A DNA stretch of 64,000 nt from Pseudofrankia inefficax (GCF_000166135.1 NC_014666.1:5146001-5210000); one strand, 5' to 3'; counted from the first letter of the stretch, positions 8,398 through 42,211 are shown. Notes: a model not told the origin generated them from the letters alone. Numbers and translations: made by a program.

Positions 8398-11300
8398 ATG
8401 GCCGACGAAGAAAAGCTGCTCGAATACCTGAAGCGGGTCACGGCCGATCTCTACCAAGCCCGCCAACAACTCCGCGACACCCACAACACCCACCACGAAC
8501 CCATCGCCATCATCGGCATCGGCTGCCGCTACCCCGGCAACACCAACACCCCCGAACAACTCTGGAACCTCCTGAACACCGGCACCGACGCCATCACCCC
8601 CTTCCCCACCAACCGCGGCTGGAACACCCACCACCTCTACCACCCCGACCCCGACCACCCCCACACCACCACCACCACCCACGGCGGCTTCCTCCACGAC
8701 GCCGACCAGTTCGACCCCACCTTCTTCAACCTCTCCCCCCGCGAAGCCCAAGCCATGGACCCCCAACAACGCCTCCTCCTCGAAACCACCTGGCACACCC
8801 TCGAACACGCCCACATACCCCCCGAACACCTCCGCGCCACCCCCACCGGCGTGTTCGTCGGCCTGGTCGGCAGCGACTACGCGGTCCGGGCATTCGGCCA
8901 GCCGGCGGACGAGGTCGAGGGTTTCCTGCTCACCGGCAACAGCGGCAGCGTGGCGTCGGGGCGGCTGGCCTACTCGTTCGGCTTCCAGGGACCCGCCGTC
9001 ACCATCGACACCGCCTGCTCCTCCTCCTTGGTCGCCATCCACCTCGCCGCCCAGGCACTCCGCAACGGCGAATGCACCCTCGCCCTCGCCGGCGGCGCCA
9101 CCGTCGTCTCGACCCCCACCGTCTTCGTCGAATTCAGCCGACAGCGGGGTCTCTCCCCCGACGGACGCTGCAAACCGTTCGCGGCCGGCGCCGACGGGAC
9201 AGGCTGGGGTGAAGGCGTCGGCCTGGTCCTGCTGGAACGGCTGTCTGACGCCCAGGCCAACGGCCACCAGGTGCTCGCCGTCGTCCGCGGCAGCGCGATC
9301 AACCAGGACGGCGCCTCCAACGGCCTCACCGCCCCCAACGGACCCTCACAACAACGCGTCATCCACCAGGCCCTCGCCAACGCGCAGCTCTCGCCCACGG
9401 ACATCGACGCCGTCGAAGCCCACGGCACCGGCACCACCCTCGGCGACCCCATCGAAGCCCAGGCACTCCTCGCCACCTACGGCCAACACCGACCCGACGA
9501 GCAACCCCTATACCTCGGCTCCATCAAATCCAACATCGGCCACACCCAAGGCGCCGCCGGAATCGCCGGCGTCATCAAAATGACCATGGCACTACACCAC
9601 GCCACCCTCCCCAGAACACTGCACGTCGACGAACCCACGCCCCACGTCGACTGGACCGCCGGAAACATCCAGCTCCTCACCGACACCACTCCCTGGCCGG
9701 ACCACAATCGGCCCCGCCGGGCCGCCGTCTCCTCGTTCGGCATCAGCGGCACCAACGCCCACCTCATCCTCGAACAGGCCCCCGAACCCGAATCTGGCGC
9801 CGACGCGGAACCCGATTCGGAACAGCCTGCCACGGCCGGACCGGAAACACCGCCCGCATTGGACGACGACCTTCCGCTGCTGATCTCGGGCCGCGGAACG
9901 GGCGCCCTGCGGGCGCAGGCGGAAAGCCTGGCCGAATTCCTTGAGGCGAATCCCCGGCTGCCACTGCGGGAGGTCCGGTCGGCGCTGCTCGGCGCCCGTT
10001 CCCTGTTCGACGATCGAGCGGCGATCGTCGCCGCGGACCGCGAGCAGGCGAGCCACGCGCTGCGGCGACTGGCGAAGGGCGAGCCCGCACCCGGGTTGTT
10101 CTCCGGCACGGCGAGCGCCGCCGCCCGCAAGGCCGTCTTCGTGTTCCCGGGCCAGGGTGGCCAGTGGCCGGGCATGGCGGCTGGCCTGCTGACCTCGGCT
10201 CCCGTGTTCCGCGACCAGGTGGCCGCCTGTGACGCCGAACTGTCCCGCCACGTCGACTGGTCGCTGCTCGACGTCCTGAGCGGCGCGCCGGGCGCGGCCT
10301 CGCTCGACCGCGTCGACGTGGTCCAGCCGGCGCTGTTCGCGGTGATGGTCGGGCTCGCCGAGCTGTGGCGATCGCGCGGGGTCCAGCCGGCCGCCGTGCT
10401 CGGGCACTCGCAGGGCGAGATCGCCGCCGCCCACGTGGCGGGGGCGCTCTCGCTGGCCGACGCGGTGCGGGTGGTGGCGCTGCGCAGCAGTGCGCTGGTG
10501 GCGCTCGCCGGGCGTGGGGGGATGGCAGCCGTGGCGCTGCCGGCCGACACCGTGGCCGAGCGGCTCGCCGTCGCCCCCTGGACGGGCCGCGTCGGCATCG
10601 CCGCGGTGAACGGGCCGGCGGCGACCGTCCTCTCCGGTGACGCCGGCACGTTGCGCACCCTGGTGGAGCGGTGGTGGGCGGACGGGGTGCGGGTCAGGAC
10701 GATTCCGGTCGACTATGCGTCTCACTCCGCCCAGGTCGACGAGATCCGGGCCCGGCTGGCCGGGGCGATCGGCGAGATCCAGGCTCCACGCGCCGACCAG
10801 GCCGCCGTGCCGTTCTTCTCGACCGTGACCGGGGACTGGCTCGGCGCGGCCGGACTCGACGCCGACTACTGGTTTCGCAACCTGCGCGCGCCGGTCCAGT
10901 TCCAGGCGGCTGTCAGCGCGCTGGCCCGGCAGGGGTTCACCACGTTCATCGAGCCGAGTCCGCACCCCGTGCTGACCGGCGCCATCGAGGAGACGCTGGC
11001 GGCCGTCGAGGTGGACGGCGTCTGCCTCGGCACCCTGCGCCGAGACGCGGGCGGACCGGCGCAGTTCACCGCCGCGGCGGCGGCTGCGTTCGTCCAGGGA
11101 GTCCCGGTGACGTGGCCGCACGGCCGCTCCGCCGAGGCGCCGGCCGCGCCCGTCGCGCGGCGCCCAGGGCTGAACGGGCTGCCGACCTATCCCTTCCAGC
11201 GGCAGCGGTACTGGTTCGACACGGCGAACGGCGCCACGGACGTCGCGGCCGCCGGCCTGCGCCCGGCCGGCCATCCGCTGCTCGCCGCGACCGTGGAGCT

Positions 11301-14300
11301 GGCCGGGGCCGACGGGGTGCTGCTCACCGGTCGCCTGTCCACCGAGCTCCAGCCGTGGCTCGCGGACCACGCGGTCGCGGGCACGGTGCTGCTGCCGGGT
11401 ACCGCCTTCGTCGAGCTGGCCCTGCGGGCCGCCGACCAGGTGGGCTGCGGCGGGGTCGACGACCTGGCGGTCGAGGCTCCGCTGCTCGTCCCGCCCACCG
11501 CGACCGTGGCGGTGCAGGTAGCGGTGGGCCCGGCGGGACCCGACGGCCGGCGAGGCGTCACCATCCACGCACGCCCCGACGGGCCGGAGAGCGCCGACCT
11601 GCCCTGGACCTCGCATGCCACCGGCACGCTCGCGCCCGCCGGACCGGGCGGGTTCGGCGGGCAGGGCGGGTTCGGCGGGCAGGGCGGGTTCAGCGGGCAG
11701 GGCGGGTTCAGCGGGCAGGGCCCGGCCGACGCGGGGCAGCCGGCGGGCTCCTGGCCACCGGCCGGGGCGACGCCGATCAGCGTGGACGGCGTGTATCCGG
11801 CCCTCGCGGACCGCGGCTACGCGTACGGGCCGGTCTTCCAGGGCCTCACCGCGGCCTGGCGGCACGGCGCCGAGCTGTATGCCGAGGTGACGCTGCCCGC
11901 GGCGGCGAAGGTCGACGGCTACGGAATCCACCCCGCGCTGCTGGACGCCGCCCTGCACGCCTTCGTCCTGAACGTGCCCAGCGGCTCCGCGACGAGCCCG
12001 GAACCGGGCGGCGCCCAGGTGGAGCTTCCGTTCGCGTGGAGTGGGGTTCGCCTGCACGCCACCGGCGCCCGAGTGGTCCGGGTACGGCTGTCGCCCCGGG
12101 GATCCTCGGCCTTCTCTGTGATCGTCACCGATCCGACGGGAGCCCCGGTCGTCACCGTGGACACCCTCACCACCCGTCCCGTCGCGGTCGACCAGCTCGG
12201 TGCGGCCGCCGTTTCGGCGGCGGGTGGCGCGGCCTACCGCGTCGCCTGGACGCCGTGGGGGGCCGCGCCGGTGCCGGCCTCGCCCGGCGGCGCCGGGCCC
12301 GCGCGGTCCGGCGGGGTCCGCCGTGTCCTCGACGGCGCCGAGGTACCCGCGGAGACCAACGGCCTGGCCGCGCTGGTCAGCGCGGTGGCCGCCGGCGAGC
12401 CGGTGCCGGAAGCGGTGTTCCTGCCGGTCTCCGGCGGCGGAGTAGCCGATCCGGCGCGGGTGCGGTCGGAGGTGGGACGGGTGCTGGCCCTGTCGCGGGG
12501 CTGGTTGGCCGAGCCCGTCCTGGCCGGCTCCCGCCTGGTCGTGGTCACCCGCGGCGCGGTGGTGGTCGACGGGGCCGACGTCTCCCGCGAGGACCCCGAG
12601 GTCGACCTGGCGGGCGGGGCCGTCTCGGGGCTCGTCCGGTCGGCGCTGTCCGAGTACCCCGACCGGTTCCTGCTCCTCGACGTCGACCCGTCCACCTTCG
12701 AGGCCCTCACCCGCCCCGCCCCAGCCAGCGACCCCGGCCCCGGCCCCGACAGGGGCTCTGGCCCCGACAGCGCCGACGGACCGGAGGCGGACGCGACGCC
12801 GGGCCTCACCGCCTGGGTGCGGGCGCTCGTCGGCGCCGACGAGTCGCAGGCTGCCCTCCGCGACGGTCGGCTCTACGTCCCCCGCCTCACCACGCTGCCC
12901 GCGACACCCGCGAGCCCGGACCGGGAATCCCCGCTCGACCCCGACCGCACGGTCCTCATCACCGGCGGCACCGGCACCCTCGGCAGCCTGCTCGCCCGCC
13001 ACCTCGCGACCACCCACGGCGCCCGGCACCTGCTCCTGACCAGCAGGCAGGGACCGGACAGCCCCGGAGCCCGCGAGCTCGTCGCGGAACTCACCGGCCT
13101 AGGCGCCCACGTCGACGTCGTCGCCTGCGACCACACCGACCCCGGCCAGGTCGCCGCGCTGCTCGCCGCCATCTCGCCCCAACACCCGCTCGGTGCCGTC
13201 TTCCACACCGCCGGCACCCTGCACGACGCCACCCTCACCACCCTCACACCAGCCCACCTCGACGACGTCCTACCCACGAAGATCGACGCCGCCTGGCACC
13301 TCCACGAACAAACCCGAGAGCTCCCGCTCACCCACTTCGTCCTGTACAGCAGCCTCGCCGGCACCCTCGGCGCACCCGGACAAGCCAACTACGCAGCCGC
13401 CAACACCTACCTCGACACCCTCGCCCACCACCGCCACACCCAAGGACTCCCCGCCACCACCCTCGCCTGGGGACTCTGGCAACACACCAGCGGGCTGACG
13501 CAGACCCTCAGCACCACCCAGCACACCCGGCTGCACCGAGGCGGCATCCATCCCCTCACCACCGAACAGGGCCACACCCTGCTCGACGCCGCCCTCCGCA
13601 GCGACCAGCCCACCCTCGCGACGGCCCATCTCAACAGCACCGCCCTGCGTGGCCAGGCGGCGGCGCCTCCGCCCATCCTCCGGCTGCTCGCGGGCGCCGG
13701 GGCCAGGCCGACGGCGCGGACGATCGACCCGTCGTCGTTGGCGGCAGAGCTCTCGGGGCTCGCTCCCGCCGAACGGCGCCAACGCATGCTGCGGACCGTC
13801 CGCGGCGCCGCCGCGGCGGTGCTCGGCCACCTCTCGGACGACGCGGTCGATCCAGGCCAGGCGTTCAGCGACCTGGGCTTCGACTCGCTCACCGCGGTCC
13901 AGCTGCGCAACCAGCTCAACGCCGCGACCGGGCACCGCCTCCCGCCGACCATGGTCTTCGACCACCCCAACCCGACCGCCCTGGCCGACTATCTGGTCCA
14001 GGTGGTCCTGGGCGAGGTCGGCCCGGGCGCGGCCAGCCCGCCACCCCGGGCGCCGGCCGCCGAGCCCGGGGAGCCGATCGCGATCGTCGCGGCGGCCTGC
14101 CGGTTCCCCGGCGGCGTGGCCTCCCCCGAGGACCTGTGGTCCCTGGTCGTCGAGGGCACCGACGCCGTCGGTGGCTTCCCGACGAACCGCGGCTGGGACG
14201 CCGACCTCTACGACCCGGACGCCGGCCGCAGCGGCAAGACCTACGCGACCGGGGGCGGGTTCCTCCAGGACGCCGACCAGTTCGACGCCGGCTTCTTCGG

Positions 14301-17300
14301 CATCAGCCCGCGCGAGGCGACGGCCATGGACCCGCAGCAGCGGCTGCTCCTGGAGACCGGCTGGGAGGCGATCGAGCGGGCCGGCCTGGACCCTCGTTCG
14401 CTGCACGGCGGCGACACCGGGGTCTACGTCGGGCTGATGGGCAGCGACTACGCCGTCCAGCTGTTCAACCAGCCCAGCGAGGACGTCGAGGGCTTCCTCA
14501 TGACGGGCAACAGCAACAGCGTGGCGTCGGGGCGGCTGGCCTACTCGTTCGGCTTCCAGGGACCCGCCGTCACCATCGACACCGCCTGCTCCTCCTCCTT
14601 GGTCGCCATCCACCTCGCCGCCCAGGCACTCCGCAACGGCGAATGCACCCTCGCCCTCGCCGGCGGCGCCACCGTCGTCTCGACCCCCACCGTCTTCGTC
14701 GAATTCAGCCGCCAACGCGGACTCTCCCCCGACGGACGCTGCAAAGCCTTCGCGGCCGGCGCCGACGGCACCGGCTTCGCGGAGGGGGTCGGCCTGGTTC
14801 TGCTCGAGCGGCTCTCCGACGCCCGCGCAGCCGGCCACCCGGTCCTCGCGCTGCTGCGCGGCAGCGCCGTCAACCAGGACGGCGCCTCCAACGGCCTCAC
14901 CGCCCCCAACGGACCCTCACAACAACGCGTCATCCACCAGGCCCTCGCCAACGCACGCCTCACCGCCACCGACATCGACGCCGTCGAAGCCCACGGCACC
15001 GGCACCACCCTCGGCGACCCCATCGAAGCCCAGGCACTCCTCGCCACCTACGGCCAACACCGACCCGACGGGCAGCCCCTGTTCCTCGGCTCGATCAAGT
15101 CGAACATCGGCCACACCCAGGGCGCCGCCGGTGTCGCCGGCGTCATCAAGATGACCATGGCGCTGCGCCACGCCACCCTCCCCAGAACGCTGCACGTCGA
15201 CGCGCCCAGCCCGCACGTCGACTGGGCGACGGGACAGGTCCGGCTCCTCACCGACACGACCCCCTGGCCCGACCGCGACCGGCCCCGGCGCGCCGCGGTC
15301 TCCTCGTTCGGCATCAGCGGCACCAACGCCCACCTCATCCTCGAGCAGGCCCCCGAACCGGAGCCGGACCCGCGGCGGGCCCCCGACGACGCCGCCGGAG
15401 CGGAACCGGAGCCGCCGGGCAGCGGGAAGATCGGGACCACGGGCATGCCGGTGGCCTGGCCGGTCTCCGCCCGCTCCGAACGCGCGCTGCGCGATCAGGC
15501 GGGCAGGCTGCTCAGCTGGCTGGAGAACGGGTCCGCCGACCCGGCCGACGTCGCCCACAGCCTCACCGCCGGCAGGACCGCGTTCGAGCGGCGGGCGGTC
15601 GTCGTCGGGCACACCCGTCGGGACCTGACGCTGGGGCTGCGGGCGCTGGCCCGCGGCGAGAACGCTCCCGAGATCGTGCGGGGCGCCGTGAGCACCCGCC
15701 GTGGCGAGAGCGCGTTCGTCCTCTCGGGCCAGGGCAGCCAGCGCCCGGGAATGGGCCAGGCCCTGTACCAGGCGTTCCCGCCGTTCGCCCAGGCCCTCGA
15801 CGACGTCTGCGACGGTCTCGACGGGCTCCTGCCCCGGCCGCTGCGGGACGTCATGTTCGCGACGCCCGCCAGCCCGCAGGCCGCTCTGTTGGACCGCACA
15901 CTGTTCGCCCAGCCGGCGCTGTTCGCGTTCCAGACCGCGCTGCATCATGCTCTCGCGCACGTCGGAGTCCGGCCGGACCATCTGATCGGCCACTCGGTCG
16001 GCGAGGTCAGCGCGGTGCACCTCGCCGGGGTGTTCGACCTCGCGGACAGCTGCGCGCTCGTGGCCGCCCGGGCCCGGCTGATGGAACAGGCCCGTGGCGA
16101 CGGGGCGATGTACTCGGTCCGGGCGCCCGAGGCCGACTGGGCGCCGCTGCTCACCGGCTACGCCGGCCGGGTCGTCGTGGCGGCCGTGAACGAGGCCGAC
16201 TCGGTCGTGCTGTCCGGGGACAGCGACGCGCTCGCGGAGATCGCCGCCACCCTCGCCGGCCGCGGCCACCGGGCCAGGCGCCTGCGGGTCAGCCACGCCT
16301 TTCACTCGCCGCACATGGACTCCATGGTCGCCGAGTTCGGGCAGGTCGTCGCGGGGCTGTCCCCGGCGGCCCAGGCCGGGTCCGTCGTCTCGACGCTGAC
16401 CGGGCAGCCGGAGAAGGCCGAGGTGCTCGGCTCGCCCGACTACTGGGTGCGCCAGGTCCGCGCGCCCGTCCGGTTCCGCGACGGCGTCCGGGCGCTGCGC
16501 GAGCTCGGCGTGCTGACCTGCGTGGAGCTCGCGCCGACACCGACGCTCGCCGCGGCCATCCTGCGCGAGACGGACGGCAGCGGGACGGACGTCGTGCCGA
16601 TCTTCGAGCAGCAACGGCCCGAGCCCGCCGCGTTCGTCGGCTCGGTCGCCCGCCTCCACAGCCGCGGCCACGACGTCCAGTGGCCGGCGCTGCTTCCCCC
16701 CGGCCGGCCGGTCGACCTCCCGACCTACGCTTTTCAGCGACGCCGCTACTGGGTCTCGGGCTCGGCGCGCCGACCGGACCGGCCCGGTTCGGCGGGCCCG
16801 CTCGAACAGCGGTTCTGGGCGGCGGTGGAGCAGGCGGACCTGGCCGCGGTGGCGCGCACGCTCGACCTCGACGACGCCGGACGTGACGCGCTGGACAGCC
16901 TCCTGCCCGCGTTGGCGGCCTGGCACCGGATCGCCGAGGCGTCGCCTGATCCCGCTCCGCGCCCGGGGACCGAGGCCGCGGGGGCTGACGGGGACGGCTC
17001 CGAGGGCGACGGGACCGAGGCGGAGCTGTTCGCCAGGACCCTGACGGCCGCCGCCGTCGAGGAGCGGCGCGCGGTCGTGCTGGCGCTGGTGCTGGCCAAG
17101 GCCGCGGACGTGCTCGGTCACGACGCGCCGGACGAGATCGAGCACGACGCCCAGTTCCTCGAGATCGGCTTCACGTCGCTGAGCGCCATGGAGCTGCGCA
17201 ACCAGCTGGCGGCGGCGACCGCCGTGGCGCTCACTCCGTCGGTCGTGTTCGACCACCCCACGCCCTCGTCCCTGGCCGACTACCTGTGGGCGGAGCTGGG

Positions 17301-17436
17301 CGGCACGCCTCCCGCCGGCGGCGGGACCGCCGACTACGAGCCCGCGACCAGGACACCGACGCCTGAACCGCCGCACGCCGAACCCGCGACCGAGGAGAGC
17401 GACCATGAACGGCGACCGGTCGGCCCCGACCTCTGA
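8398..17436 (+). CDS. Type I modular PKS, two modules; probable terminal PKS of the assembly line
   Basis: 3012 residues. The N-terminal docking helix (ADEEKLLEYLKRVTADLYQ) fixes ATG 8398, with GGGGAG at 8381-8386 upstream. First module: KS Cys207, AT Ser671 with YASH from 773 (methylmalonyl), DH His991/Asp1183 with canonical HxxxGxxxxP, KR B-type with Tyr1665, ACP Ser1830. Second module: KS Cys2064, AT Ser2533 with HAFH 2633-2636 (malonyl), then only a KR-type dimerisation remnant near residue 2803 and an ACP (Ser2927 in GFTSL, Thr replacing the usual Asp). There is no KR, TE or C-terminal docking motif; the protein ends in an acidic, Pro-rich tail. A final module leaving a beta-ketoacyl-ACP with no TE is what tetronate-forming assembly lines show. 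The gene runs 32 nt into the FkbH-like gene, which ties it physically to the tetronate cassette. Confidence 0.96.
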   Translation: MADEEKLLEYLKRVTADLYQARQQLRDTHNTHHEPIAIIGIGCRYPGNTNTPEQLWNLLNTGTDAITPFPTNRGWNTHHLYHPDPDHPHTTTTTHGGFLHDADQFDPTFFNLSPREAQAMDPQQRLLLETTWHTLEHAHIPPEHLRATPTGVFVGLVGSDYAVRAFGQPADEVEGFLLTGNSGSVASGRLAYSFGFQGPAVTIDTACSSSLVAIHLAAQALRNGECTLALAGGATVVSTPTVFVEFSRQRGLSPDGRCKPFAAGADGTGWGEGVGLVLLERLSDAQANGHQVLAVVRGSAINQDGASNGLTAPNGPSQQRVIHQALANAQLSPTDIDAVEAHGTGTTLGDPIEAQALLATYGQHRPDEQPLYLGSIKSNIGHTQGAAGIAGVIKMTMALHHATLPRTLHVDEPTPHVDWTAGNIQLLTDTTPWPDHNRPRRAAVSSFGISGTNAHLILEQAPEPESGADAEPDSEQPATAGPETPPALDDDLPLLISGRGTGALRAQAESLAEFLEANPRLPLREVRSALLGARSLFDDRAAIVAADREQASHALRRLAKGEPAPGLFSGTASAAARKAVFVFPGQGGQWPGMAAGLLTSAPVFRDQVAACDAELSRHVDWSLLDVLSGAPGAASLDRVDVVQPALFAVMVGLAELWRSRGVQPAAVLGHSQGEIAAAHVAGALSLADAVRVVALRSSALVALAGRGGMAAVALPADTVAERLAVAPWTGRVGIAAVNGPAATVLSGDAGTLRTLVERWWADGVRVRTIPVDYASHSAQVDEIRARLAGAIGEIQAPRADQAAVPFFSTVTGDWLGAAGLDADYWFRNLRAPVQFQAAVSALARQGFTTFIEPSPHPVLTGAIEETLAAVEVDGVCLGTLRRDAGGPAQFTAAAAAAFVQGVPVTWPHGRSAEAPAAPVARRPGLNGLPTYPFQRQRYWFDTANGATDVAAAGLRPAGHPLLAATVELAGADGVLLTGRLSTELQPWLADHAVAGTVLLPGTAFVELALRAADQVGCGGVDDLAVEAPLLVPPTATVAVQVAVGPAGPDGRRGVTIHARPDGPESADLPWTSHATGTLAPAGPGGFGGQGGFGGQGGFSGQGGFSGQGPADAGQPAGSWPPAGATPISVDGVYPALADRGYAYGPVFQGLTAAWRHGAELYAEVTLPAAAKVDGYGIHPALLDAALHAFVLNVPSGSATSPEPGGAQVELPFAWSGVRLHATGARVVRVRLSPRGSSAFSVIVTDPTGAPVVTVDTLTTRPVAVDQLGAAAVSAAGGAAYRVAWTPWGAAPVPASPGGAGPARSGGVRRVLDGAEVPAETNGLAALVSAVAAGEPVPEAVFLPVSGGGVADPARVRSEVGRVLALSRGWLAEPVLAGSRLVVVTRGAVVVDGADVSREDPEVDLAGGAVSGLVRSALSEYPDRFLLLDVDPSTFEALTRPAPASDPGPGPDRGSGPDSADGPEADATPGLTAWVRALVGADESQAALRDGRLYVPRLTTLPATPASPDRESPLDPDRTVLITGGTGTLGSLLARHLATTHGARHLLLTSRQGPDSPGARELVAELTGLGAHVDVVACDHTDPGQVAALLAAISPQHPLGAVFHTAGTLHDATLTTLTPAHLDDVLPTKIDAAWHLHEQTRELPLTHFVLYSSLAGTLGAPGQANYAAANTYLDTLAHHRHTQGLPATTLAWGLWQHTSGLTQTLSTTQHTRLHRGGIHPLTTEQGHTLLDAALRSDQPTLATAHLNSTALRGQAAAPPPILRLLAGAGARPTARTIDPSSLAAELSGLAPAERRQRMLRTVRGAAAAVLGHLSDDAVDPGQAFSDLGFDSLTAVQLRNQLNAATGHRLPPTMVFDHPNPTALADYLVQVVLGEVGPGAASPPPRAPAAEPGEPIAIVAAACRFPGGVASPEDLWSLVVEGTDAVGGFPTNRGWDADLYDPDAGRSGKTYATGGGFLQDADQFDAGFFGISPREATAMDPQQRLLLETGWEAIERAGLDPRSLHGGDTGVYVGLMGSDYAVQLFNQPSEDVEGFLMTGNSNSVASGRLAYSFGFQGPAVTIDTACSSSLVAIHLAAQALRNGECTLALAGGATVVSTPTVFVEFSRQRGLSPDGRCKAFAAGADGTGFAEGVGLVLLERLSDARAAGHPVLALLRGSAVNQDGASNGLTAPNGPSQQRVIHQALANARLTATDIDAVEAHGTGTTLGDPIEAQALLATYGQHRPDGQPLFLGSIKSNIGHTQGAAGVAGVIKMTMALRHATLPRTLHVDAPSPHVDWATGQVRLLTDTTPWPDRDRPRRAAVSSFGISGTNAHLILEQAPEPEPDPRRAPDDAAGAEPEPPGSGKIGTTGMPVAWPVSARSERALRDQAGRLLSWLENGSADPADVAHSLTAGRTAFERRAVVVGHTRRDLTLGLRALARGENAPEIVRGAVSTRRGESAFVLSGQGSQRPGMGQALYQAFPPFAQALDDVCDGLDGLLPRPLRDVMFATPASPQAALLDRTLFAQPALFAFQTALHHALAHVGVRPDHLIGHSVGEVSAVHLAGVFDLADSCALVAARARLMEQARGDGAMYSVRAPEADWAPLLTGYAGRVVVAAVNEADSVVLSGDSDALAEIAATLAGRGHRARRLRVSHAFHSPHMDSMVAEFGQVVAGLSPAAQAGSVVSTLTGQPEKAEVLGSPDYWVRQVRAPVRFRDGVRALRELGVLTCVELAPTPTLAAAILRETDGSGTDVVPIFEQQRPEPAAFVGSVARLHSRGHDVQWPALLPPGRPVDLPTYAFQRRRYWVSGSARRPDRPGSAGPLEQRFWAAVEQADLAAVARTLDLDDAGRDALDSLLPALAAWHRIAEASPDPAPRPGTEAAGADGDGSEGDGTEAELFARTLTAAAVEERRAVVLALVLAKAADVLGHDAPDEIEHDAQFLEIGFTSLSAMELRNQLAAATAVALTPSVVFDHPTPSSLADYLWAELGGTPPAGGGTADYEPATRTPTPEPPHAEPATEESDHERRPVGPDL
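8950..9140 (+). repeat. 191-bp exact repeat in KS (partner 14521-14711)
   Basis: The DNA surrounding the KS active-site Cys is identical base for base to 14521-14711, in the next module of the same protein. Flanking DNA diverges on both sides. Protein conservation alone would not keep every synonymous site, so recent duplication or gene conversion is likely. Confidence 0.9.
11647..11718 (+). repeat. Tandem repeat, four 18-bp units in DH coding sequence
   Basis: Four in-frame units encode GGFGGQ, GGFGGQ, GGFSGQ, GGFSGQ. They sit between the two halves of the DH hotdog fold, in a variable loop before the PAGSWPP segment. The unit pairs differ only at one Gly/Ser codon, which fits stepwise duplication by replication slippage. 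Confidence 0.95.
13195..13493 (+). repeat. 299-bp exact repeat in KR (partner 46724-47022)
   Basis: This central and 3' KR segment, including the catalytic Tyr codon, is identical at every base I compared to 46724-47022, in M4 of the PKS at 42212, 33.5 kb away. The flanks of the M4 copy resemble the KR of the 2303 gene instead. Confidence 0.88.
14071..17300 (+). other. PKS module: KS-AT(malonyl)-ACP, no reductive domains (probable last module)
   Basis: Second module of the 8398-17436 protein. KS and AT motifs are intact (Cys2064; Ser2533; HAFH). After the AT there is a stretch like the helical element that normally precedes a KR (FWAAVEQADLAAVARTL, about 16810-16860), but the ACP follows within about 250 residues and no Rossmann motif is present. 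The predicted product is an unreduced beta-ketoacyl-ACP, as tetronate ring formation needs. Confidence 0.9.
14521..14711 (+). repeat. 191-bp exact repeat in KS (partner 8950-9140)
   Basis: Second copy of the KS active-site block described at 8950-9140, 5571 bp downstream in the same orientation. Shorter shared blocks continue past the end (for example 9301-9382 with 14872-14953), separated by diverged stretches. Confidence 0.9.
17392..17397 (+). promoter_or_regulatory. Shine-Dalgarno of FkbH-like gene
   Basis: GAGGAG lies 7 bases before ATG 17405, inside the 3' end of the PKS gene. It supports the start that overlaps the PKS stop (17436) by 32 nt. Confidence 0.8.
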
Positions 17437-19459
17437 CCCGGCCACGATGGCGACGCGCGACCCCGACCCGCCGACTGGGGCGAGCCCGCGGGCGGCCACC
17501 GTGATCGACGGTGACCCGGTGAAGGCCTGGCCGAGCGCCGCCGAACGGGCGGACACGGCCCTGCGGGACCTGCGCCGCCGTGGCGGCCTCGCGGCCGAGT
17601 TCGCGGAGCTGTCGAGGATTCTCGACGAGCTCGCACCGTCGCGGCTGGCCGCGGCGGGCAACCTGATCGCCACGCTCGACCCGGCCGAGATCCTGCGCGC
17701 GAACCCGACGGTCACGGCCGTCACGGTCGCGGTCACCGGTCACGGCACCCTGGGGCCGCTGGTCCCGGTGCTGACGGCGGAACTGGCTCGGCATCGGCTG
17801 CTCGCCCGGCCGACGCTGGGCGCCTTCGGCAGCTACGTCTTCGACCTCGGCGACCCGGCGAGCGAGCTGTACGCCGCCGATCCGGACCTGGTCCTGTGCG
17901 TGCTGGACCAGCGGGTCGTCCTCGACGAGCTGCCCACCCCGTGGCGGGTCGAGGACCTGGAGCGCGTCGTCACGGCCAGGCTGGCCACCGTCGAGGAGCT
18001 GGTCGACCGGTTCCAGCGGACGGCGCGCGGCACGCTCGTGCTCAACACGCTGCCGCTGGGACGCGAGGCCACCGCGGCGGTCGTGGACTACCGGTCGCGA
18101 GCCCGGCTCGGCGCCATCTGGCGGGAGGCCAACGCCCGGCTGCTGCGGCTGGCCGAGACGTCCCAGCGGCTGGTGGTCGTGGACCTCGACCCGCTGCTGG
18201 CGGGTGGCCTGCCCGCCGTGGATCCCCGGCACGACCTCTATGCCGGGGCGCACCTGTCCGCGCAGCTGCTCGCCGGTTACGCCAGGGAGATCGGCCACCT
18301 GGCCCGTCACCTGACCGGGCGGACCCGCAAGGTCCTCGTCGTCGATCTGGACGAGACGGTCTGGGGTGGCGTGCTCGGCGAGGTGGGGCCGGACGGGATC
18401 GAGGTCGTGCCGGCGGACGGATACCGGGGCGGCGCGTTCCAGGCGTTCCAGCGAACCGTCAAGCAGATCGGCTCGCAGGGTGTGCTGCTCGCCGCCGTCA
18501 GCAAGAACGACCCCGACCTCGTGCGAACGGCGCTGCGCGATCGCGACGGCATGACGCTGCGCGAGGAGGACTTCGTGCGCGTGGTCGCGAACTGGCGGCC
18601 GAAGCACGAGAACCTGGCGGAGCTGGCCGCCGCGCTCAACCTCGGCCTCGACAGCTTCGTGTTCGTGGACGACTCCCCCGCCGAACGGGGGCTGGTGCGC
18701 CGCGAGCTGCCCGAGGTCGCGGTCGTGGCGGTGGACGACGAGCCGGCGGGCCACCGTGGCGCGCTGCTGGCCGACGGCTGGTTCGACGTCCGCGAGCTCA
18801 CCGGGCAGGACCGGTCGCGGCTGACGGACTACCGGACCGAGCTCGACCGCAAGGACTTCCTGGACACGTTCGACTCGATCGAGGACTACCTGCGCGAGCT
18901 CGGCGTGCAGGTCCGGCTGCGCGCGGTGCGCCCGAGCGAGATCGGCCGGGTCTCGCAGCTGACGCTGCGGACCAACCAGTTCAACCTCACCGGCCTGCGC
19001 CTCCAGCCGCCGGACGTCCGCAGGCTCGTCGAGGACGACGCGGGCCTGGTGGTCGCGATCCACGCCCGGGACCGGTTCGGCGACAACGGGCTGGTGGGCG
19101 CGATGTTCGCCAGCCATCCCGGCGACGTGTGGTCGATCGAGAACTTCCTGCTCAGCTGCCGGGTGTTCTCCCGGGGCATCGAGCAGGCCAGCCTGCTCGC
19201 GCTGCTGCGCCACGCCCAGCGTTCGGGGGCGACGCAGGTCGTCGGCGCCTACCGGGCCACCGCGCGCAACGGCAAGGTCCGCGACTTCTACCCGCGCTCC
19301 GGGTTCGTGCCGACGGGCGGCGCCGACGACGGCCTCGGCGGTCCCGCCGGTCCCGGGGACGACGCGGCCCCGGTCAGCACCTGGCGTCACGACCTGACCC
19401 ACATCGCCGCGCCGCCGCCGCACGTGGCGCTCACGCAGGACCTCGGAGGCAAGCCGTGA
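17405..19459 (+). CDS. FkbH-like HAD-superfamily glyceryl-ACP synthase
   Basis: 684 residues, the length of the long FkbH-type proteins of tetronate clusters. These proteins take a D-1,3-bisphosphoglycerate-derived glyceryl group, dephosphorylate it and load it on a dedicated ACP. Visible parts: an N-terminal SGNH-like region (about 95-290), a HAD phosphatase core with the DLDET motif (Asp314 and Asp316), SKNDP and FVDDSPAE motifs near residues 370 and 420, and a C-terminal GNAT-like region (TNQFNLT, then NGLVG and IENFLLSCRVFSRGIE). The start is fixed by GAGGAG 7 bases upstream. The stop overlaps the GTG of the ACP gene (GTGA). FkbH proteins also occur in methoxymalonyl-ACP pathways, but the usual acyl-CoA dehydrogenase, hydroxyacyl dehydrogenase and O-methyltransferase partners are absent here, so a tetronate role is preferred. 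It resembles RkE of RK-682 biosynthesis by family; no alignment was run. Confidence 0.93.
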   Translation: MNGDRSAPTSDPATMATRDPDPPTGASPRAATVIDGDPVKAWPSAAERADTALRDLRRRGGLAAEFAELSRILDELAPSRLAAAGNLIATLDPAEILRANPTVTAVTVAVTGHGTLGPLVPVLTAELARHRLLARPTLGAFGSYVFDLGDPASELYAADPDLVLCVLDQRVVLDELPTPWRVEDLERVVTARLATVEELVDRFQRTARGTLVLNTLPLGREATAAVVDYRSRARLGAIWREANARLLRLAETSQRLVVVDLDPLLAGGLPAVDPRHDLYAGAHLSAQLLAGYAREIGHLARHLTGRTRKVLVVDLDETVWGGVLGEVGPDGIEVVPADGYRGGAFQAFQRTVKQIGSQGVLLAAVSKNDPDLVRTALRDRDGMTLREEDFVRVVANWRPKHENLAELAAALNLGLDSFVFVDDSPAERGLVRRELPEVAVVAVDDEPAGHRGALLADGWFDVRELTGQDRSRLTDYRTELDRKDFLDTFDSIEDYLRELGVQVRLRAVRPSEIGRVSQLTLRTNQFNLTGLRLQPPDVRRLVEDDAGLVVAIHARDRFGDNGLVGAMFASHPGDVWSIENFLLSCRVFSRGIEQASLLALLRHAQRSGATQVVGAYRATARNGKVRDFYPRSGFVPTGGADDGLGGPAGPGDDAAPVSTWRHDLTHIAAPPPHVALTQDLGGKP
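19445..19449 (+). promoter_or_regulatory. Shine-Dalgarno of small ACP gene
   Basis: GGAGG lies 6 bases before GTG 19456, inside the end of the FkbH-like gene. It decides the GTG start and the 4-base overlap. Confidence 0.85.
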
Positions 19460-19716
19460 ACACGGTCGACGAATTCGTGGAGCTCGTCTCCGACGAGCTC
19501 GGGCTCCCGCTCGCGCCCGACGACCTCAGGCTGACGTTCGACCAGCTCCCGGGGTGGAACTCCGTGCAGCTGCTGACCCTGATGGTCGCGTTGGAGCGCT
19601 CGACGGCCCGCCGGGTCCGGATGACGGACGTGCTCACCGCGACCTCGCTCTACGAGATCTACGCGCTGGTCAGCGACTCCGAAGCCGCCCCGCTGCCGCG
19701 GCGGGCCGAACGATGA
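19456..19716 (+). CDS. Free-standing acyl carrier protein (glyceryl carrier)
   Basis: 86 residues, the usual size of a discrete ACP. It begins at GTG, overlapping the previous stop, with a strong GGAGG. The phosphopantetheine attachment Ser lies in the WNSVQLL motif (about residue 36), at the start of helix II. This form (WNS in place of GFDSL) is typical of ACPs encoded beside FkbH-like proteins. It probably carries the glyceryl unit made by the neighbouring FkbH protein and presents it to the ketosynthase III that joins it to the polyketide. The stop overlaps the ATG of the acyltransferase (ATGA), so translation is likely coupled. Confidence 0.92.
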   Translation: MNTVDEFVELVSDELGLPLAPDDLRLTFDQLPGWNSVQLLTLMVALERSTARRVRMTDVLTATSLYEIYALVSDSEAAPLPRRAER

Positions 19717-20561
19717 GCGCGGCCGTGGGCGCCACGATCGGCGCCGTCCCCAGGCAGCGCCGGCACACGCTGCATTTCCTGCGCGGCATCCGACAGTCGT
19801 CGCCGGTGTTCCTCGGGACGACCGTCGACATGAGCCGGGTGACGGAGCACCGGGCCGAGGCGGCGCGCGCGGGCGAGCGATTCTCTCCGGTCAGCTACGT
19901 GCTCGTCGTCGCCGGCCGGGTGCTGGCGGAGCACCCCGACGCCAACGCCGCGATCCGGGGCACGCTCATCCCGAGACTGGCCCACTACCCGGTGGTGAAC
20001 GCCAAGCTGGCGCTCGACGCCACGCTGGCGGGCCAGCGGGTGGTGCTGGCGGCGGTGCTACCGGACCTGCAGCGCGCCACCCTCGCCGAGGTCCAGCGCC
20101 GGGTCGACTACTTCCGCGACGGCGACCCCGAGCGGCTTCCGGAGCTCGCCGGGGCCCGCGCCCTCGACCGGCTGCCCGGGCCGCTCGGGCGGCTCGTCTT
20201 CCGGGCCGCGACGACACCCCTGCGGCGCCGGGCCGCGGCGGTCGGCACCTTCGCGGTGTCCTCGCTCGGGCACCGGGCCGTCGACGGGTTCTACTCGGTC
20301 GGGGGCACCACCGTCACCCTCGGAGTCGGACGGATCGCCGAGCGGCCGGTGGTCCGCGACGCCACGGTGGTCGCCGCCCCGACCATGCGGCTCAGCCTGG
20401 TCTTCGACCACCGAGTGATCGACGGCGCGGAGGCCGCCGACGTCCTCACCGAGATCAAGGACGGGCTGGAGGACTTCCCGACACCGGAGGTGGCCGCTCC
20501 CCCGCTCGCCACGGGTACGACCGGCGAGGCTGGCACGACCGTTCCGGTGGCGGCCTCATGA
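19713..20561 (+). CDS. E2-type acyltransferase (2-oxoacid dehydrogenase acyltransferase family)
   Basis: 282 residues from the ATG that overlaps the ACP stop; the longer frame upstream is a shadow of the ACP gene. The C-terminal part has the HxxxDG catalytic motif of dihydrolipoamide acyltransferases and chloramphenicol acetyltransferase (DHRVIDGAEAA, His233 and Asp237). Unlike a true E2 subunit it has no lipoyl or subunit-binding domain. Family members in tetronate clusters (Agg4 of agglomerin) acetylate the primary hydroxyl on the tetronate ring, setting up elimination. Its place between the glyceryl-ACP genes and a hydrolase gene supports that role. The start has only a weak ribosome site, consistent with coupling through ATGA. 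Substrate and acyl donor are inferred from the family. Confidence 0.88.
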   Translation: MSAAVGATIGAVPRQRRHTLHFLRGIRQSSPVFLGTTVDMSRVTEHRAEAARAGERFSPVSYVLVVAGRVLAEHPDANAAIRGTLIPRLAHYPVVNAKLALDATLAGQRVVLAAVLPDLQRATLAEVQRRVDYFRDGDPERLPELAGARALDRLPGPLGRLVFRAATTPLRRRAAAVGTFAVSSLGHRAVDGFYSVGGTTVTLGVGRIAERPVVRDATVVAAPTMRLSLVFDHRVIDGAEAADVLTEIKDGLEDFPTPEVAAPPLATGTTGEAGTTVPVAAS

Positions 20562-21598
20562 GCAACGACGTCGCCGAGCTGAAGCGGTTCGTGGTCGCGC
20601 ACGCCAGGGCGCAGAAGATCGCCGGCTACCGCGACGTGCTCGCCCGGGTGCAGCACGACGGCGACGGCCCGGGCTCCTGGGTGCGGGTGTGGAGCGAGGA
20701 GGCGGCGAGGTTCGAGCGGGCCGGCCGCCCCTGGGAGGCCAGCCGCCGCTACGCGCTCGCCCGGTTCCCGTTCGTCGACGGTCCGGCCAGGCAGGAGGCG
20801 ATGGACCGCTGCGTCGCCACGTTCGAGGACTGGCGCCGCGAGCGGCCCGACATCGAGGAGGTCGAGGTCGCCCTCGACGGTCAGCGGTTCCGGTGCTGGG
20901 CCAGCGGGCTGTCCGCCACGCAGCGTCGCCCCACCCTCCTGATCAGCGGCGGCATCGTCACGGTCAAGGAACAGTGGGCGCCGATGCTGCCGATGCTGCG
21001 GCGGTTCGGGATGGCCGTCGTCGCCGCCGACATGCCGGGCGCCGGGGAGAACCCGCTGGTCTACGGCGCCGACAGCGGGCGGATGTGGAGCGCCGTCCTG
21101 GACGCCGTCGCCGACCGCGCGGACGTGACCCGCTCCTTCGCGATCGCCCTGAGCTTCAGCGGCCACCTGACGCTGCGCCAGGCGCTGCACGACCAGCGCA
21201 TCCGGGGGGTGGTGACGGTCGGCGCGCCGGTGAGCGACTTCTTCACCGACGGCCTCTGGCATGGCCGTGTCCCGCGCATCACGCTGCGCACCCTCGCGCA
21301 CATGGCCGGCCACGGGAGGATGGGCCGGGTCCCGCCGGCCGAGCTGGCCCGCTGGGCGCTCAGCGACGACGAGCTCGCCCGGCTGCGCGTCCCGGTCTTC
21401 TACACCGCCTGCCAGCGCGACGAGATCATCCCGGCCAGCGATGTGGCCCGGCTGCGGCGACGCGTCCAGAATCTTCACGTTCTCGAGCACGACGACGTCC
21501 ACGGCGCGCCGAACCACACCGCGCGCACCCAGCTGTGGACCCTCACCTCCCTGCTGCGGATGCGGCTTTCCGGTCGTCGACGCCGACCGACAGGTTGA
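20558..21598 (+). CDS. Alpha/beta hydrolase, probable tetronate acetate eliminase
   Basis: 346 residues; the ATG overlaps the previous stop (ATGA). It has an alpha/beta-hydrolase core from about residue 120 (LLISGG, then AADMPGAGEN), a nucleophile elbow ALSFSGH with Ser199 as the best candidate nucleophile, an acid residue Asp288 in CQRDEIIP, and a C-terminal His (His315 or His320). A helical N-terminal extension of about 100 residues is typical of the FrsA/DUF1100-like branch. In tetronate clusters the gene after the E2-type acyltransferase encodes an eliminase (Agg5 type) that removes acetate to give the exocyclic methylene; the same order here suggests the same job. The elbow is AxSxS where GxSxG is usual. 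It could instead be an esterase or an editing hydrolase. Confidence 0.86.
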   Translation: MSNDVAELKRFVVAHARAQKIAGYRDVLARVQHDGDGPGSWVRVWSEEAARFERAGRPWEASRRYALARFPFVDGPARQEAMDRCVATFEDWRRERPDIEEVEVALDGQRFRCWASGLSATQRRPTLLISGGIVTVKEQWAPMLPMLRRFGMAVVAADMPGAGENPLVYGADSGRMWSAVLDAVADRADVTRSFAIALSFSGHLTLRQALHDQRIRGVVTVGAPVSDFFTDGLWHGRVPRITLRTLAHMAGHGRMGRVPPAELARWALSDDELARLRVPVFYTACQRDEIIPASDVARLRRRVQNLHVLEHDDVHGAPNHTARTQLWTLTSLLRMRLSGRRRRPTG

Positions 21599-21714: not shown

Positions 21715-24700
21715 GTGAATAGAGCGATGGGTGAGTCGCGGCGCGCTGCAACAGAAACGACGGCGGAGACCGAACCAATTGCGGTCGTCGGAATGTCGTG
21801 CCGGCTGCCGGGCGCCGCTGATCTCGACGCTTTCTGGCGCCTTCTGGAAAATGGCGGCGACGCCGTCACCGAGGCACCACCCGGCCGCTGGGAAGGCGTT
21901 CCTGAACCGTACCGCCGGGGTGGCTTCCTCGACCGGGTGGACGAGTTCGACGCCGACTTCTTCGGGATGTCGCCCCGCGAGGCCGCGATGACGGACCCGC
22001 GGCAGCGGCTGGCGCTGGAGCTGTCCTGGGAGGCGCTCGAGAACGCCGGAGTCCTTCCCGGGCAGCTGCGCGGGAGCCGAACCGGCGTGTACGTCGGCGC
22101 GATCGGGGACGACTACGCGACGGTGGTGCACCGCAACGGCGCGGACGACCTCACCTCGCACTCCATGACCGGACTGCACCGGAGCCTGATCGCCAACCGG
22201 GTCTCCTACGTCCTGGGGCTGCGCGGGCCGAGCCTGACCGTCGACAGTGGGCAGTCGTCGTCGCTGGCCTCGGTCCACCTCGCATGCGAGAGCATCCGCC
22301 GGGGCGAGTCGGCCTTCGCCCTGGCCGGTGGCGTCAACCTGAACCTCGCCGTCGAGAACGTCGTCGCCGCCATCAGGTTCGGCGGTCTGTCGCCGGATGG
22401 CCGGTGCCACACGTTCGACGCCCGCGCGAACGGCTACGTCCGGGGCGAGGGCGGCGCCGTCGTCGTGCTGGCGCCGCTGTCCAGGGCCCGCGCGGACGGC
22501 CTGCGGATCCACGGCCTGGTGCGCGGCGGGGCGATCAACAACGATGGCGGCTCGGACGGGCTCACCGTTCCCGACCGGGAGGCGCAGGAGGAGGTCCTCC
22601 GGCTCGCCTACCGGCACGCCCGGGTCGACCCGGGCGCCGTGCAGTACGTCGAGCTTCACGGCACCGGCACCAGGGTCGGCGATCCCATCGAGGCGGCCGC
22701 GCTCGGCGCCACCCTCGGAGCCGCGCGGCCGGCCGGAGACGCGCTGCTGGTCGGCTCGGCGAAGACGAACGTCGGTCATCTGGAGGCGGCGGCGGGCGTC
22801 GTCGGGCTCGTGAAGACGTTGCTGAGCCTGGACCGCCGCCGCGTCCCGGCGAGTCTGCACTTCGAGCGGCCCAACCCGGCGGTTCCACTGGACGAGTACC
22901 GCCTGCGAGTCAACACGGCGCTGACCGACTGGCCCGCGAACGGCGGCCCGCTGCTCGCGGGAGTCTCGTCGTTCGGCATGGGCGGCACCAACGTCCACCT
23001 CGTGCTTGAGCAGGCGCCGGAGGCCCATCCCGGCCCGGCGGGCGGTGCCGGGCCGGCACCGGCCGGCGAGGAGGGCGAGGTTGACGACCGGCCGGCGGTC
23101 GCGTGGCTGCTTTCGGCGCGGACGCCGGCGGCGCTGGCGCAGCAGGCCGCCCGCCTGGGTGCCGCGGTGTCCGGACGGGACGCGGCCGCGAGCAGCCCCG
23201 CCCGGGTGGCCGCGGCGTTGGAGCGTCGCACCGTCTTTCCTTACCGGGCGGCAGTGACCGGCGACGACCGGGACACTCTGGTAGGCGCGCTCGACGCGCT
23301 GGCTCACGGTCTGCCGGCTCCCCACCTGGCCACCGGCAAGGCTGCCCTGTCAGCCGACGCGCCACGGGTCGTGTTCGTCTACCCGGGCCAGGGATCGCAG
23401 TGGCCAGGCATGGCCGCCGGTCTGGCCGCGGCCGACCCGGTCTTTGCCCAGGCGTTCGAAGGAGCCACCGCGGCGCTAGCGCCCTACGTCGACTGGGACC
23501 CCGCCGTACTACTAACCGGCGACGACCCCGGCTTCGATCGGGTCGACGTCGTTCAACCCGCCCTCTGGGCCGTCATGATCGCCCTCACCACCTGGTGGCG
23601 CGCACACGGCATTGTGCCCGACGCCGTCGTCGGCCACAGCCAAGGCGAAATCGCCGCCGCCACCACCGCCGGAATCCTCACCCTCGACCAAGGCGCCCGA
23701 CTCATCACCACCCGCGCCACCCTCCTACGCCGACTCGCCGGCACCGGCGGCATGCTCGCCATCCCCCACACCCCCCACACCATCCCCGACGGCCTGCACA
23801 TCGCCGCCTACAACAGCCCCACCCACACCGTTCTCGCCGGACCCGTCGAACCACTCCACCAGGCCCTCGCCGACTACCAGCGACAAGGCATCCGCGCACG
23901 CCTCATCGACGTCACCTACGCCAGCCACACCCCCGCCATCGAACCCCTCCACGACGACCTACTCACCCAACTCGCGAGCCTCACCCCAAACCCCACCAGC
24001 GAAGGCGCCCCACGCTTCTACTCCACCCGCACCACCCAGATCCTCACTCCCAGCGACCTCACCCCCGACTACTGGTACGACAACCTCCGCCACCCCGTCC
24101 GCCTCACCCAAACCATCACCAACACCAGAAACGACGGCCACACCCACTGGATCGAAATCAGCCCACACCCCACCCTCACCACCCCCCTCCACGACACCCT
24201 CCACACCCCCGACACCCCAGACACCCCAGACACCACCAGCCCCGACCCGGTAGTCCTGCACACCCTGCGACGCGACCACGACACCCCGGCCCACCATTTG
24301 GCAGTCCTCGCGAACGCCTGGACCCACGGCCTCCCCGCACACTGGCGACGAACCGAGGCCAACCCAGCTCTCGACCTGCCGACCTACCCGTTCCAGCGCG
24401 AGCCCCATTGGGTAGCGCGGCGGCAGAGCCAGCCGGCCCCCTCGCTGGACGGCCCGGGCGCCGGGTCCAGTACCGCGACTCAGCCCGCCACCGCGATCCA
24501 GCCGGGCGCAGCGGCCGCACCCGAAACCGGGGGCACGCCGGGCTCGACGGGTCAGCCTGGCCGGGAGCCGGCCGGCGCGCTCGGTGCCTTCGCGGCGCTT
24601 CCCGACGGACCGCGCGCCGCGGCGCTCGCCAACCTGGTCCGCACGGGCGCGGCAGCCGTCCTGGGAGTCTCCGACCCGGCCACGATCGACGAGTCCCGCA

Positions 24701-27700
24701 CCTTCAAGGACCTCGGCTTCGACTCGACGATGGCCCTCGAGCTGCGCAACCACCTGGCCGCCTCGACCGGCCTGCCGCTGCCGACCGGCCTGGTGTACGA
24801 GCGGCCGACGTGCGCGGCCGTCGTCGCGCTGCTCGACGCGGAGATCGCCGGCGATACTCCGGACGCGGACCGCGCCGAGACGACGGGCGGCTCCGACGAG
24901 CCGATCGCCATCGTCGCCATGAGCTGCCGGTACCCGGGCGGCGTGGAGTCGCCCGACGACCTGTGGCGGCTCGTCACAGCCGAGCGGGACGCGACGTCCG
25001 ACTTCCCGGACAACCGGGGCTGGAATATCGACGAACTCATCGGAGCGGAATTCGGCGGGACGGAGCCGGGAACCGCGGTCCCGCTGCGCGGCGGATTCCT
25101 CGCCACCGCCGACCAGTTCGACAGCGACTTCTTCGGAATCAACGCCCGGGAAGCCGCCGGAATGGAACCGCAGCAGCGCGTGCTGCTCGAGACCGCGTGG
25201 GAGACGCTCGAACGGGCCGGTCTGGATCCGACCGGCCTGCGGGGCCGCCGTATCGGGGTGTTCGTCGGCGCGATGTCGCAGGAATACGGGCCCCGACTGC
25301 GGGAGTCGGCGGGTGAGCAGCGCGGCTATCTTCTCACCGGGAACGCGGCGAGCGTGGCGTCCGGCCGGGTGGCGTACACCTTTGGCCTCGAAGGACCGGC
25401 GCTGACCGTCGACACCGCGTGTTCGTCATCGCTGGTCGCCATTCACCTGGCCGCCCAGGCGCTGCGCAACGGGGAATGCACCCAGGCGCTGGCCGGTGGG
25501 GTGACCGTCATGGCCTCGCCCGGCATCTTTCTGGAGTTCGCCCGCCAGGGTGGCCTGGCCGCGGACGGCCGGGTGAAGTCGTTCGCCGCCGGGGCGGACG
25601 GCACGGCCTGGTCGGAGGGCGCGGGCCTGCTGCTGCTGGAACGCCTGTCGGACGCCCGCGCGAACGGCCACCGGATCCTCGCCGTGCTACGCGGCTCCGC
25701 CGTCAACCAGGACGGCGCCTCCAACGGCCTCACCGCCCCCAACGGCCTCTCCCAGCAACGGCTGATCCGCCAGGCGCTCGCGAACGCGCGGCTCACGCCG
25801 GCCGACGTCGACGCCGTCGAGGCCCACGGCACCGGCACGACCCTCGGCGACCCCATCGAGGCCGACGCGCTGCTGGCGACCTATGGCCAGCACCGATCTG
25901 ACGACCAGCCGCTGTTCCTCGGCTCGATCAAGTCGAACATCGGCCACAGCCAGGCAGCGGCCGGCGTCGCCGGCGTCATCAAGATGGTCATGGCACTACG
26001 CCACGCCACCCTCCCCCGAACGCTGCACGTCGACGCGCCCACCCCGCACGTCGACTGGGCCACCGGGCAGGTGGAGCTCCTGACCGACTCGATGCCCTGG
26101 CCCGACCGGCACCGACCGCGGCGCGCCGCCGTGTCCTCCTTCGGCATCAGCGGCACCAACGCCCACCTCATCCTCGAACAGGCACCCCTCACGGACAGCA
26201 CCGCGCACGTCGAGGTCGCGGCCCCACCGAATACCCCGACGTCCTGGGTCCTGTCCGCCAAGACCCCCGCCGGGCTGCGCGAACAGGCCGCCCAGCTACA
26301 CGCGGCCCTCACCGACCGGGCGGACGCGACCCCGTCCGCCGTGGCCACCACCCTGCATCGCCGCAGTGCCTTCGCGCACCGCGCCGCGATCACCGGCACC
26401 CACCAGCCAGACCTCCTCGCCGGCCTGCGGGCACTCGCCGAGGACCAGCCAGCCACCCAACTGACCGTCGCGCACAGCAGCCGGCTGACCAGCCCTCGCG
26501 TGGTGTTCGTCTACCCGGGCCAGGGCTCCCAATGGCCAGGCATGGCCGCCGGCCTCGCCACAGCCGACCCGGTCTTTCACCAGGCATTGGAAGAAGCGAC
26601 CACGGCACTCGCGCCCTACGTCGACTGGAACCCCGCCACGCTCCTCGACGGCCACGATCCAGGCTTCGACCGGGTCGACGTCGTCCAACCCGCCCTCTGG
26701 GCCGTCATGATCGCCCTCACCACCTGGTGGCGCCAACACGGCGTAACACCCGCCGCAGTCGTCGGACACAGCCAAGGCGAAATCGCCGCCGCAGTCACCG
26801 CAGGAATCCTCACCCTCGACCAAGGCGCCCACCTCATCACCACCCGCGCACACCTCCTACGCCAACTCGCCGGCACCGGCGGCATGCTCACCATCCCCCA
26901 CACCCTCACCCCCGACGACATCCCCGACGGGCTGCACATCGCCGCGCACAACAGCCCCACCAACACCGTCCTCGCCGGACCGACCGAACCACTCCACAAA
27001 GCCCTAGCCCACTACCAGCAACAAGGCATCCGAGCCCGCCTCATCGACGTCGACTACGCCAGCCACACCCCCGCCATCGAACCCCTCCGAGAAGAACTCC
27101 TCACCCAACTCGCAGGCCTCACCCCTAGTCCCATCGCCGACGGCAACCCACGCTTCTACTCCACCCGCACCACCCAGGTCGTCGACCCGAGCGACCTCAC
27201 CCCCGAGTACTGGTTTGACAATCTCCGCCACCCCGTCCACCTCACCGAAACCATTACCAACACCCAACAAGACGGCCACACCCACTGGATCGAAATCAGC
27301 CCACACCCCACCCTCACCACCGCACTACACGACACCCTCGACACCAACACCCCAACCACCCCCGACCCCGTCGTCCTCCACACCCTGCGACGCGACCACG
27401 ACACCCCCACCGACCATCTGACAGCCCTCACCACCGCCTGGACCCACGGCCTGCCCACCCACTGGCGGTCAGCCGAAACCAACCCAGCACCGGACCTCCC
27501 TACCTACCCCTTCCAGCGCCAGCGCTACTGGCTCAACCCCCCACCCGCCACCAGCCAGGTCAACCCCGACAGCCATCCCTGGATCACCCACACCACCGAG
27601 CACCCCGACGGCACCCACCACCACACCGGCCACCTCGACCCCGCAGACCACCCCTGGCTCACCGACCACACCATCGCCGGAAACCCCATCCTCCCCGCCA

Positions 27701-42165: not shown

Positions 42166-42202
42166 GGGCGGACCGGAGATGACGGACAGCTCGTCGGACA
42201 GC

Positions 42203-42207
42203 GGAGG
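42203..42207 (+). promoter_or_regulatory. Shine-Dalgarno deciding start of PKS at 42212
   Basis: GGAGG lies 4 bases before ATG 42212. The upstream in-frame ATG at 42179 has GGAG directly touching it with no spacer, so 42212 is the better start; the docking helix begins immediately after it. Confidence 0.7.
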
Positions 42208-42211
42208 AACG

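Follow-up and report, generated by a model that had tools for sequence, protein, structure and literature searches.

What closes a tetronate ring when the ketosynthase that should do so seems to be missing, and what becomes of the ring afterwards? These questions are raised by a modular polyketide synthase (PKS) cluster of Pseudofrankia inefficax, of which a 64 kb stretch (5146001-5210000 of the closed genome of 8,815,781 bases, or 8.8 Mb; hereafter the window) contains a four-gene tetronate cassette at window positions 17405-21598. The cassette proves to be an AbyA1-A5-like set of the ordinary kind, though its genes lie in two separate places, and the "missing" ketosynthase III (KAS III) is a window-edge artefact. 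The real oddity, as judged from sequence, is rather that no barrel spirocyclase is detectable. The locus is very probably that half of a class II spirotetronate-type cluster which off-loads the chain and forms the rings, and we predict a decalin methylenetetronate that the usual enzyme does not spirocyclise. We found no paper on this cluster in the literature searched.

The tetronate cassette and its ketosynthase III

The initial annotation was right that the 64 kb hold no KAS III and, in the first of its two alternatives, that the gene must lie outside them, but not that the cassette lacks one. A FabH/KAS III search of the flanking contig returned a PF08541 match at 5213569-5213784, in a gene at 5212801-5213838 (L007:2801-3838, L007 being numbered from the window end) that starts 2801 bases, or 2.8 kb, past the window end, and a KAS III that is truly missing is thereby ruled out. 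The gene order beyond the window is PKS5 (ending at 5211251), a flavin adenine dinucleotide (FAD) enzyme (5211287-5212804; L007:1287-2804) and the KAS III. Because the FAD gene lies directly after PKS5 and overlaps the start of the KAS III gene, both belong to the same cluster as the cassette, and the tetronate set is complete in one cluster, in two blocks about 45 kb apart that are separated by PKS4 and PKS5.

The KAS III is a member of the tetronate subfamily: its nearest PDB relative is 5by7 (E=1.4e-118), with the next FabH far behind (4.8e-27), and it is 52-61% identical to the KAS IIIs of 11 tetronate loci. The cysteine, the LPPQLSG motif and the asparagine of GN(T/C/N)GN are common to 11 tetronate loci of named actinomycetes. 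LPPQLSG replaces the canonical PHQANxR, with loss of the FabH histidine, whereas two canonical FabH copies elsewhere in this genome keep PHQANxR. A tetronate formed without any KAS III, the second alternative offered by the initial annotation, is exceedingly unlikely given a tetronate-subfamily enzyme with conserved Cys and Asn in the same cluster; we found no support for it, the KAS III being absent from the 64 kb only.

The four genes of the cassette itself, namely those for an FkbH-like protein, a discrete acyl carrier protein (ACP), an E2-type acyltransferase and an alpha/beta hydrolase, are all present in this order as first described, co-directional on the plus strand and joined by stop/start overlaps of four bases; the stop of PKS3 (17436) in turn overlaps the start of the FkbH open reading frame (17405). 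The FkbH-like glyceryl transferase/phosphatase (17405..19459; AbyA2/ChlD1/KijC type) scores 290 bits against TIGR01686 (cut-off 146.65), carries the HAD motif DLDET at residue 314 and is 56-62% identical to the FkbH proteins near the KAS III in nine relatives; its true start may lie downstream of 17405, as the frame has 684 aa and the homologues about 620 aa. The discrete ACP (19456..19716, GTG start, 86 aa; AbyA3/ChlD2 type; PF00550, 25.2 bits) holds its phosphopantetheine serine in the motif GWNSV. Here the ACP reads WNSV where those of three related loci (L018, L020 and L023) read WDSV, a change of D to N before that serine. The acyltransferase (19713..20561, ATG start; AbyA4/ChlD3/Agg4 type; 2-oxoacid_dh PF00198, 76.2 bits) has its catalytic HRVIDG at residue 233 and is 56-64% identical to the acyltransferases in 11 of 12 related loci; a longer mechanical reading frame starting at 19554 was rejected as wrong in favor of the ATG at 19713. 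Finally, the acetate-eliminating type of hydrolase (20558..21598; AbyA5/ChlD4/Agg5 type) finds its best solved match not in primary metabolism but in AbyA5 (4ywf/5no5; E=5e-107, aligned over 343 residues), with which LSFSGH of the nucleophile region and HDDVHG are identical. The abyssomicin genes AbyA1-A5 are thus homologous to the set found here. FkbH, ACP, KAS III, acyltransferase and hydrolase together constitute the five-gene glycerate-utilisation set; the genes, their families and their linkage in one cluster are established, with intact reading frames and conserved catalytic motifs.

An FkbH-ACP pair is common to methoxymalonyl and tetronate pathways (PMC7489565), which could suggest that the pair supplies methoxymalonyl-ACP instead of serving a tetronate. 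This is most improbable in view of the KAS III, the E2 acyltransferase and the AbyA5-type hydrolase, which are all present, and no methoxymalonyl-ACP genes, the dehydrogenase pair included, were seen among the typed flanking genes. A methoxymalonyl-ACP cassette, the hallmark of which is a pair of dehydrogenases with an O-methyltransferase next to FkbH and ACP, was accordingly rejected, the neighbors being PKS3, the acyltransferase and the hydrolase.

The roles of the five tetronate enzymes have been described (PMC7489565), and deletions of abyA1-A4 abolish abyssomicin (PMC3625739). By analogy with these homologs, the FkbH-like protein would take a glyceryl unit from 1,3-bisphosphoglycerate and load it onto the discrete ACP, and the KAS III would join glyceryl-ACP to the beta-ketoacyl chain on module 11 of PKS3, a reaction that forms the tetronate and frees the chain. 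Acetylation of the ring hydroxymethyl by the acyltransferase would then be followed by elimination of acetate by the hydrolase, to give a 5-methylene tetronate.

A decalin-type flavoenzyme and its assembly line

The enzyme encoded directly before the KAS III belongs to the ChlE3/PyrE3 clade of FAD-dependent, decalin-forming [4+2] cyclases. Its best PDB matches are ChlE3 (1.5e-143), the closest solved relative at 51% identity, and PyrE3 (2.3e-117). In a tree of 16 rows it clusters with its counterparts from the wychimicin producer, Actinocrispum wychmicini, and from Actinomadura pelletieri (support 95/94), near ChlE3/PyrE3 and apart from TedJ (43% identity) and Tmn9, which group with each other; those from Streptomyces sp. 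NRRL F-5123 and Pseudofrankia asymbiotica pair with each other separately within the ChlE3/PyrE3 clade. It also keeps the histidine aligned to His74 of TedJ/PyrE3, a residue whose role has been described (PMC12380092). Because an enzyme of this clade adjoins the KAS III, class II spirotetronates are closer to the cluster than the RK-682, agglomerin and quartromicin pathways with which it was initially compared. From class II chemistry, the enzyme would be expected to form a trans-decalin by [4+2] cycloaddition between a C4=C5 dienophile (module M10) and a C10-C13 diene (M7 and M6).

Tetronomycin and tetronasin clusters have the same five genes together with a PyrE3-like enzyme (PMC7489565), so that a polyether tetronate, with the FAD enzyme acting like Tmn9/Tsn11, might be envisaged. 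We consider this very unlikely: the FAD enzyme groups with the spirotetronate decalin enzymes and not with Tmn9, and pathways of that type also need a VstJ-like barrel cyclase (PMC7489565), which was not found here. Among the typed genes we noticed no epoxidase paired with an epoxide hydrolase, though no search was aimed at such a pair.

The five PKS genes, all on the plus strand, encode a KSQ loading module and 11 extension modules, with module content and acyltransferase domain (AT) specificities read from a motif map. PKS4 (21715..42165) contains the KSQ-AT-ACP loading module (YASH), M1 (methylmalonyl, DH-ER-KR), M2 (malonyl, KR) and M3 (malonyl, DH-KR). PKS5 (42128..64000, on to window-equivalent 65251) contains M4 (methylmalonyl, DH-KR), M5 (TAGH, DH-ER-KR), M6 (malonyl, DH-KR) and M7 (methylmalonyl, DH-KR). 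PKS1 (1..2273, starting 3.75 kb before the window) encodes M8 (methylmalonyl, KR, and a DH with P to A in HxxxGxxxxP), PKS2 (2303..8395) M9 (malonyl, KR and a degenerate DH), and PKS3 (8398..17436) M10 (DH-KR, methylmalonyl-type AT) and M11, a malonyl KS-AT-ACP module. M11, the last module, has neither reductive domains nor a thioesterase (TE), as expected for tetronate off-loading, and the combination of KSQ loading, about 11 modules and an unreduced, TE-less last module is that of class II spirotetronate systems. PKS4 and PKS5 are taken as first in line because the C-terminal end of the former and the N-terminal end of the latter are unlike the docking ends of the DDEIFxFIDxEL/EEKLxxYLKRVT type common to the other PKSs; the order PKS1-PKS2-PKS3 is inferred to follow that of the genes.

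The TAGH in the AT of M5 is presumably an ethylmalonyl-type signature, and two crotonyl-CoA carboxylase/reductase genes lie elsewhere in the genome. Upstream of the PKS genes, a 3-hydroxyacyl-CoA dehydrogenase of 606 aa (L010:11713-13533) might supply an unusual extender unit to this module. M4 and M7 have KS domains with 91% identity, which suggests recent duplication or gene conversion between modules; a self-search of the PKS genes for long near-identical DNA repeats (>=500 bases, >=93%) found none. Tandem peptide repeats occur in linkers, (GGFGGQ)n in M10 of PKS3 (~window 11700-11800) and (GTESM)n in M3 of PKS4. The GC skew is strongly negative (-0.25 to -0.27) and the GC content lower at window positions 24001-28000, 44001-48000 and 60001-64000, three stretches that coincide in part with AT-DH regions of PKS4 and PKS5 rich in His, Thr and Pro.

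The barrel spirocyclase

The clusters of A. wychmicini and A. pelletieri, the latter being a species reported to make MM 46115, share with the present one the tetronate genes, a FAD enzyme of the same clade, KS-AT-ACP loading followed by 10 or 11 modules and an unreduced last module. In both, the genes for the FAD enzyme, KAS III, FkbH, acyltransferase and hydrolase are grouped in a single block (in A. wychmicini the FAD enzyme directly precedes the KAS III, FkbH, acyltransferase and hydrolase genes), whereas here PKS4 and PKS5 split it. Both also have a barrel spirocyclase on the same contig, about 70-80 kb from the KAS III; here none was detected.

The profile used (A1) was built from six barrel cyclases or relatives from related genomes. 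On the PDB it recovered AbyU (4e-47), PloI4 (5e-36), PyrI4 (3e-26), AbmU (6e-22) and Tsn15 (3e-6), and on the genomes of the wychimicin producer and A. pelletieri, which had both contributed rows to it, it gave 6e-60 and 3e-58; PF18678 matched in both as well. In the closed genome of P. inefficax A1 found no barrel spirotetronate cyclase of the AbyU/PyrI4/PloI4, PF18678 type at E up to 10, and the best match of a sensitive six-frame search over 164 kb around the cluster was only E=1.2. Searches of this genome with PF18678 and one AbyU-like protein, which were weakly controlled, were likewise empty. A 207-aa protein encoded at L007:14818-15441 has neither a Pfam match nor a match to A1.

Among 35 genomes of the same family, tetronate-type KAS IIIs (E < 1e-40) are present in 18 and a barrel cyclase in 10, so that tetronate genes without a barrel cyclase are common there, most of the clusters concerned being untyped. 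The barrel cyclase is also undetected in the draft genomes of Streptomyces sp. NRRL F-5123 and P. asymbiotica, which have a related FAD enzyme and tetronate genes. In these two loci, unlike in the cluster described here, the FAD enzyme and the tetronate genes are separated by a shared set that encodes a conserved protein of some 370 aa (L019:15005-16111 and L023:6825-7940), a transporter and a regulator.

The second [4+2] step and the predicted product

Best matches of the reductive regions link M2, M3 and M4 to M1, M2 and M3 of A. pelletieri, whose line comprises KSQ loading, malonyl KR, malonyl DH-KR and methylmalonyl DH-KR modules and then eight more; M6 and M10 match M6 and M10. From these matches, the diene unit has been kept, with one module added before it and seven modules, as against eight in A. 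pelletieri and the wychimicin producer, between the presumed spiro-diene and the tetronate. This shift of the diene by one module toward the tetronate would take two carbons out of the macrocycle.

The chain thus still encodes a conjugated diene through A. pelletieri-type modules (KR, then malonyl DH-KR, then methylmalonyl DH-KR), and the methylene tetronate dienophile for spirocyclisation is also predicted. These features could point to a normal spirotetronate, for which the second [4+2] either needs no enzyme or is catalyzed by a protein with a different fold or by a barrel cyclase that has diverged beyond detection. We regard this as doubtful, though deserving of some weight, since A1 detects the known barrel cyclases of the PDB, Tsn15 included, and nothing in this genome, and since the diene is displaced by one module. 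Just upstream of PKS1 (L010:14290-15288) are genes for an SRPBCC (Polyketide_cyc2) and a SnoaL-like protein, neither of them clearly part of the cluster; there is no evidence either way on these as replacement cyclases, and the SnoaL-like gene adjoins a divergently oriented TetR-like gene and may not be a cluster member.

The most economical account appears to be a complete tetronate cassette and a decalin cyclase, with the second [4+2] absent or done differently, and the likeliest predicted product is a trans-decalin methylenetetronate on which the usual spirocyclising enzyme has not acted. Several points weigh against it. No compound is known from the cluster, the product being predicted from its genes. 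Both the AT specificities and the order PKS5-PKS1-PKS2-PKS3 were deduced from motifs and from the similarity of docking ends, which fail to separate PKS1, 2 and 3, and dehydratase activity in M8 and M9 is uncertain. The methylmalonyl-type AT of M7 would place a methyl on the diene terminus (C10), and such a methyl is not known from described class II compounds. There may also be a spirocyclase that has a different fold or that the profile is not sensitive enough to find.

Known systems resemble the cluster in different respects. The kijanimicin cluster shares five PKS genes with loading and eleven extender modules, the flavin enzyme KijA and the KijB-E tetronate set (PMC10951976) but, unlike the present one, has sugar genes and the barrel cyclase KijU (PMC10951976, PMC10946715). 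No glycosyltransferase was recognized among the genes typed here; a methyltransferase (L007:3971-4828) and a P450 (L007:5127-6293) lie downstream of the KAS III, outside the window. Chlorothricin biosynthesis provides the closest solved flavoenzyme, ChlE3, but its ChlL-type spirocyclase has no counterpart that we could find. Tetrodecamycin combines a tetronate with a trans-decalin made by a FAD Diels-Alderase and has no spiro ring (PMC12380092), though its TedJ is the more distant enzyme. The abyssomicin cluster has AbyU, seven modules and no FAD decalin enzyme (PMC3625739, PMC7176366), whereas here there is a FAD enzyme and no cyclase of the AbyU type.

We tentatively propose, while granting it slightly less than an even chance, that the cluster descends from a class II spirotetronate line that lost spirocyclisation: the decalin-forming FAD enzyme would have been kept and the barrel cyclase lost along with one PKS module that lay between diene and tetronate, so that the released decalin polyketide would carry an unused diene and a 5-methylene tetronate left free and electrophilic. 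Should the spirocyclase prove to be truly missing, the cluster offers a natural experiment on whether the enzyme or the chain length limits the second Diels-Alder step, and decalin methylenetetronates as long as full spirotetronates are to be expected.

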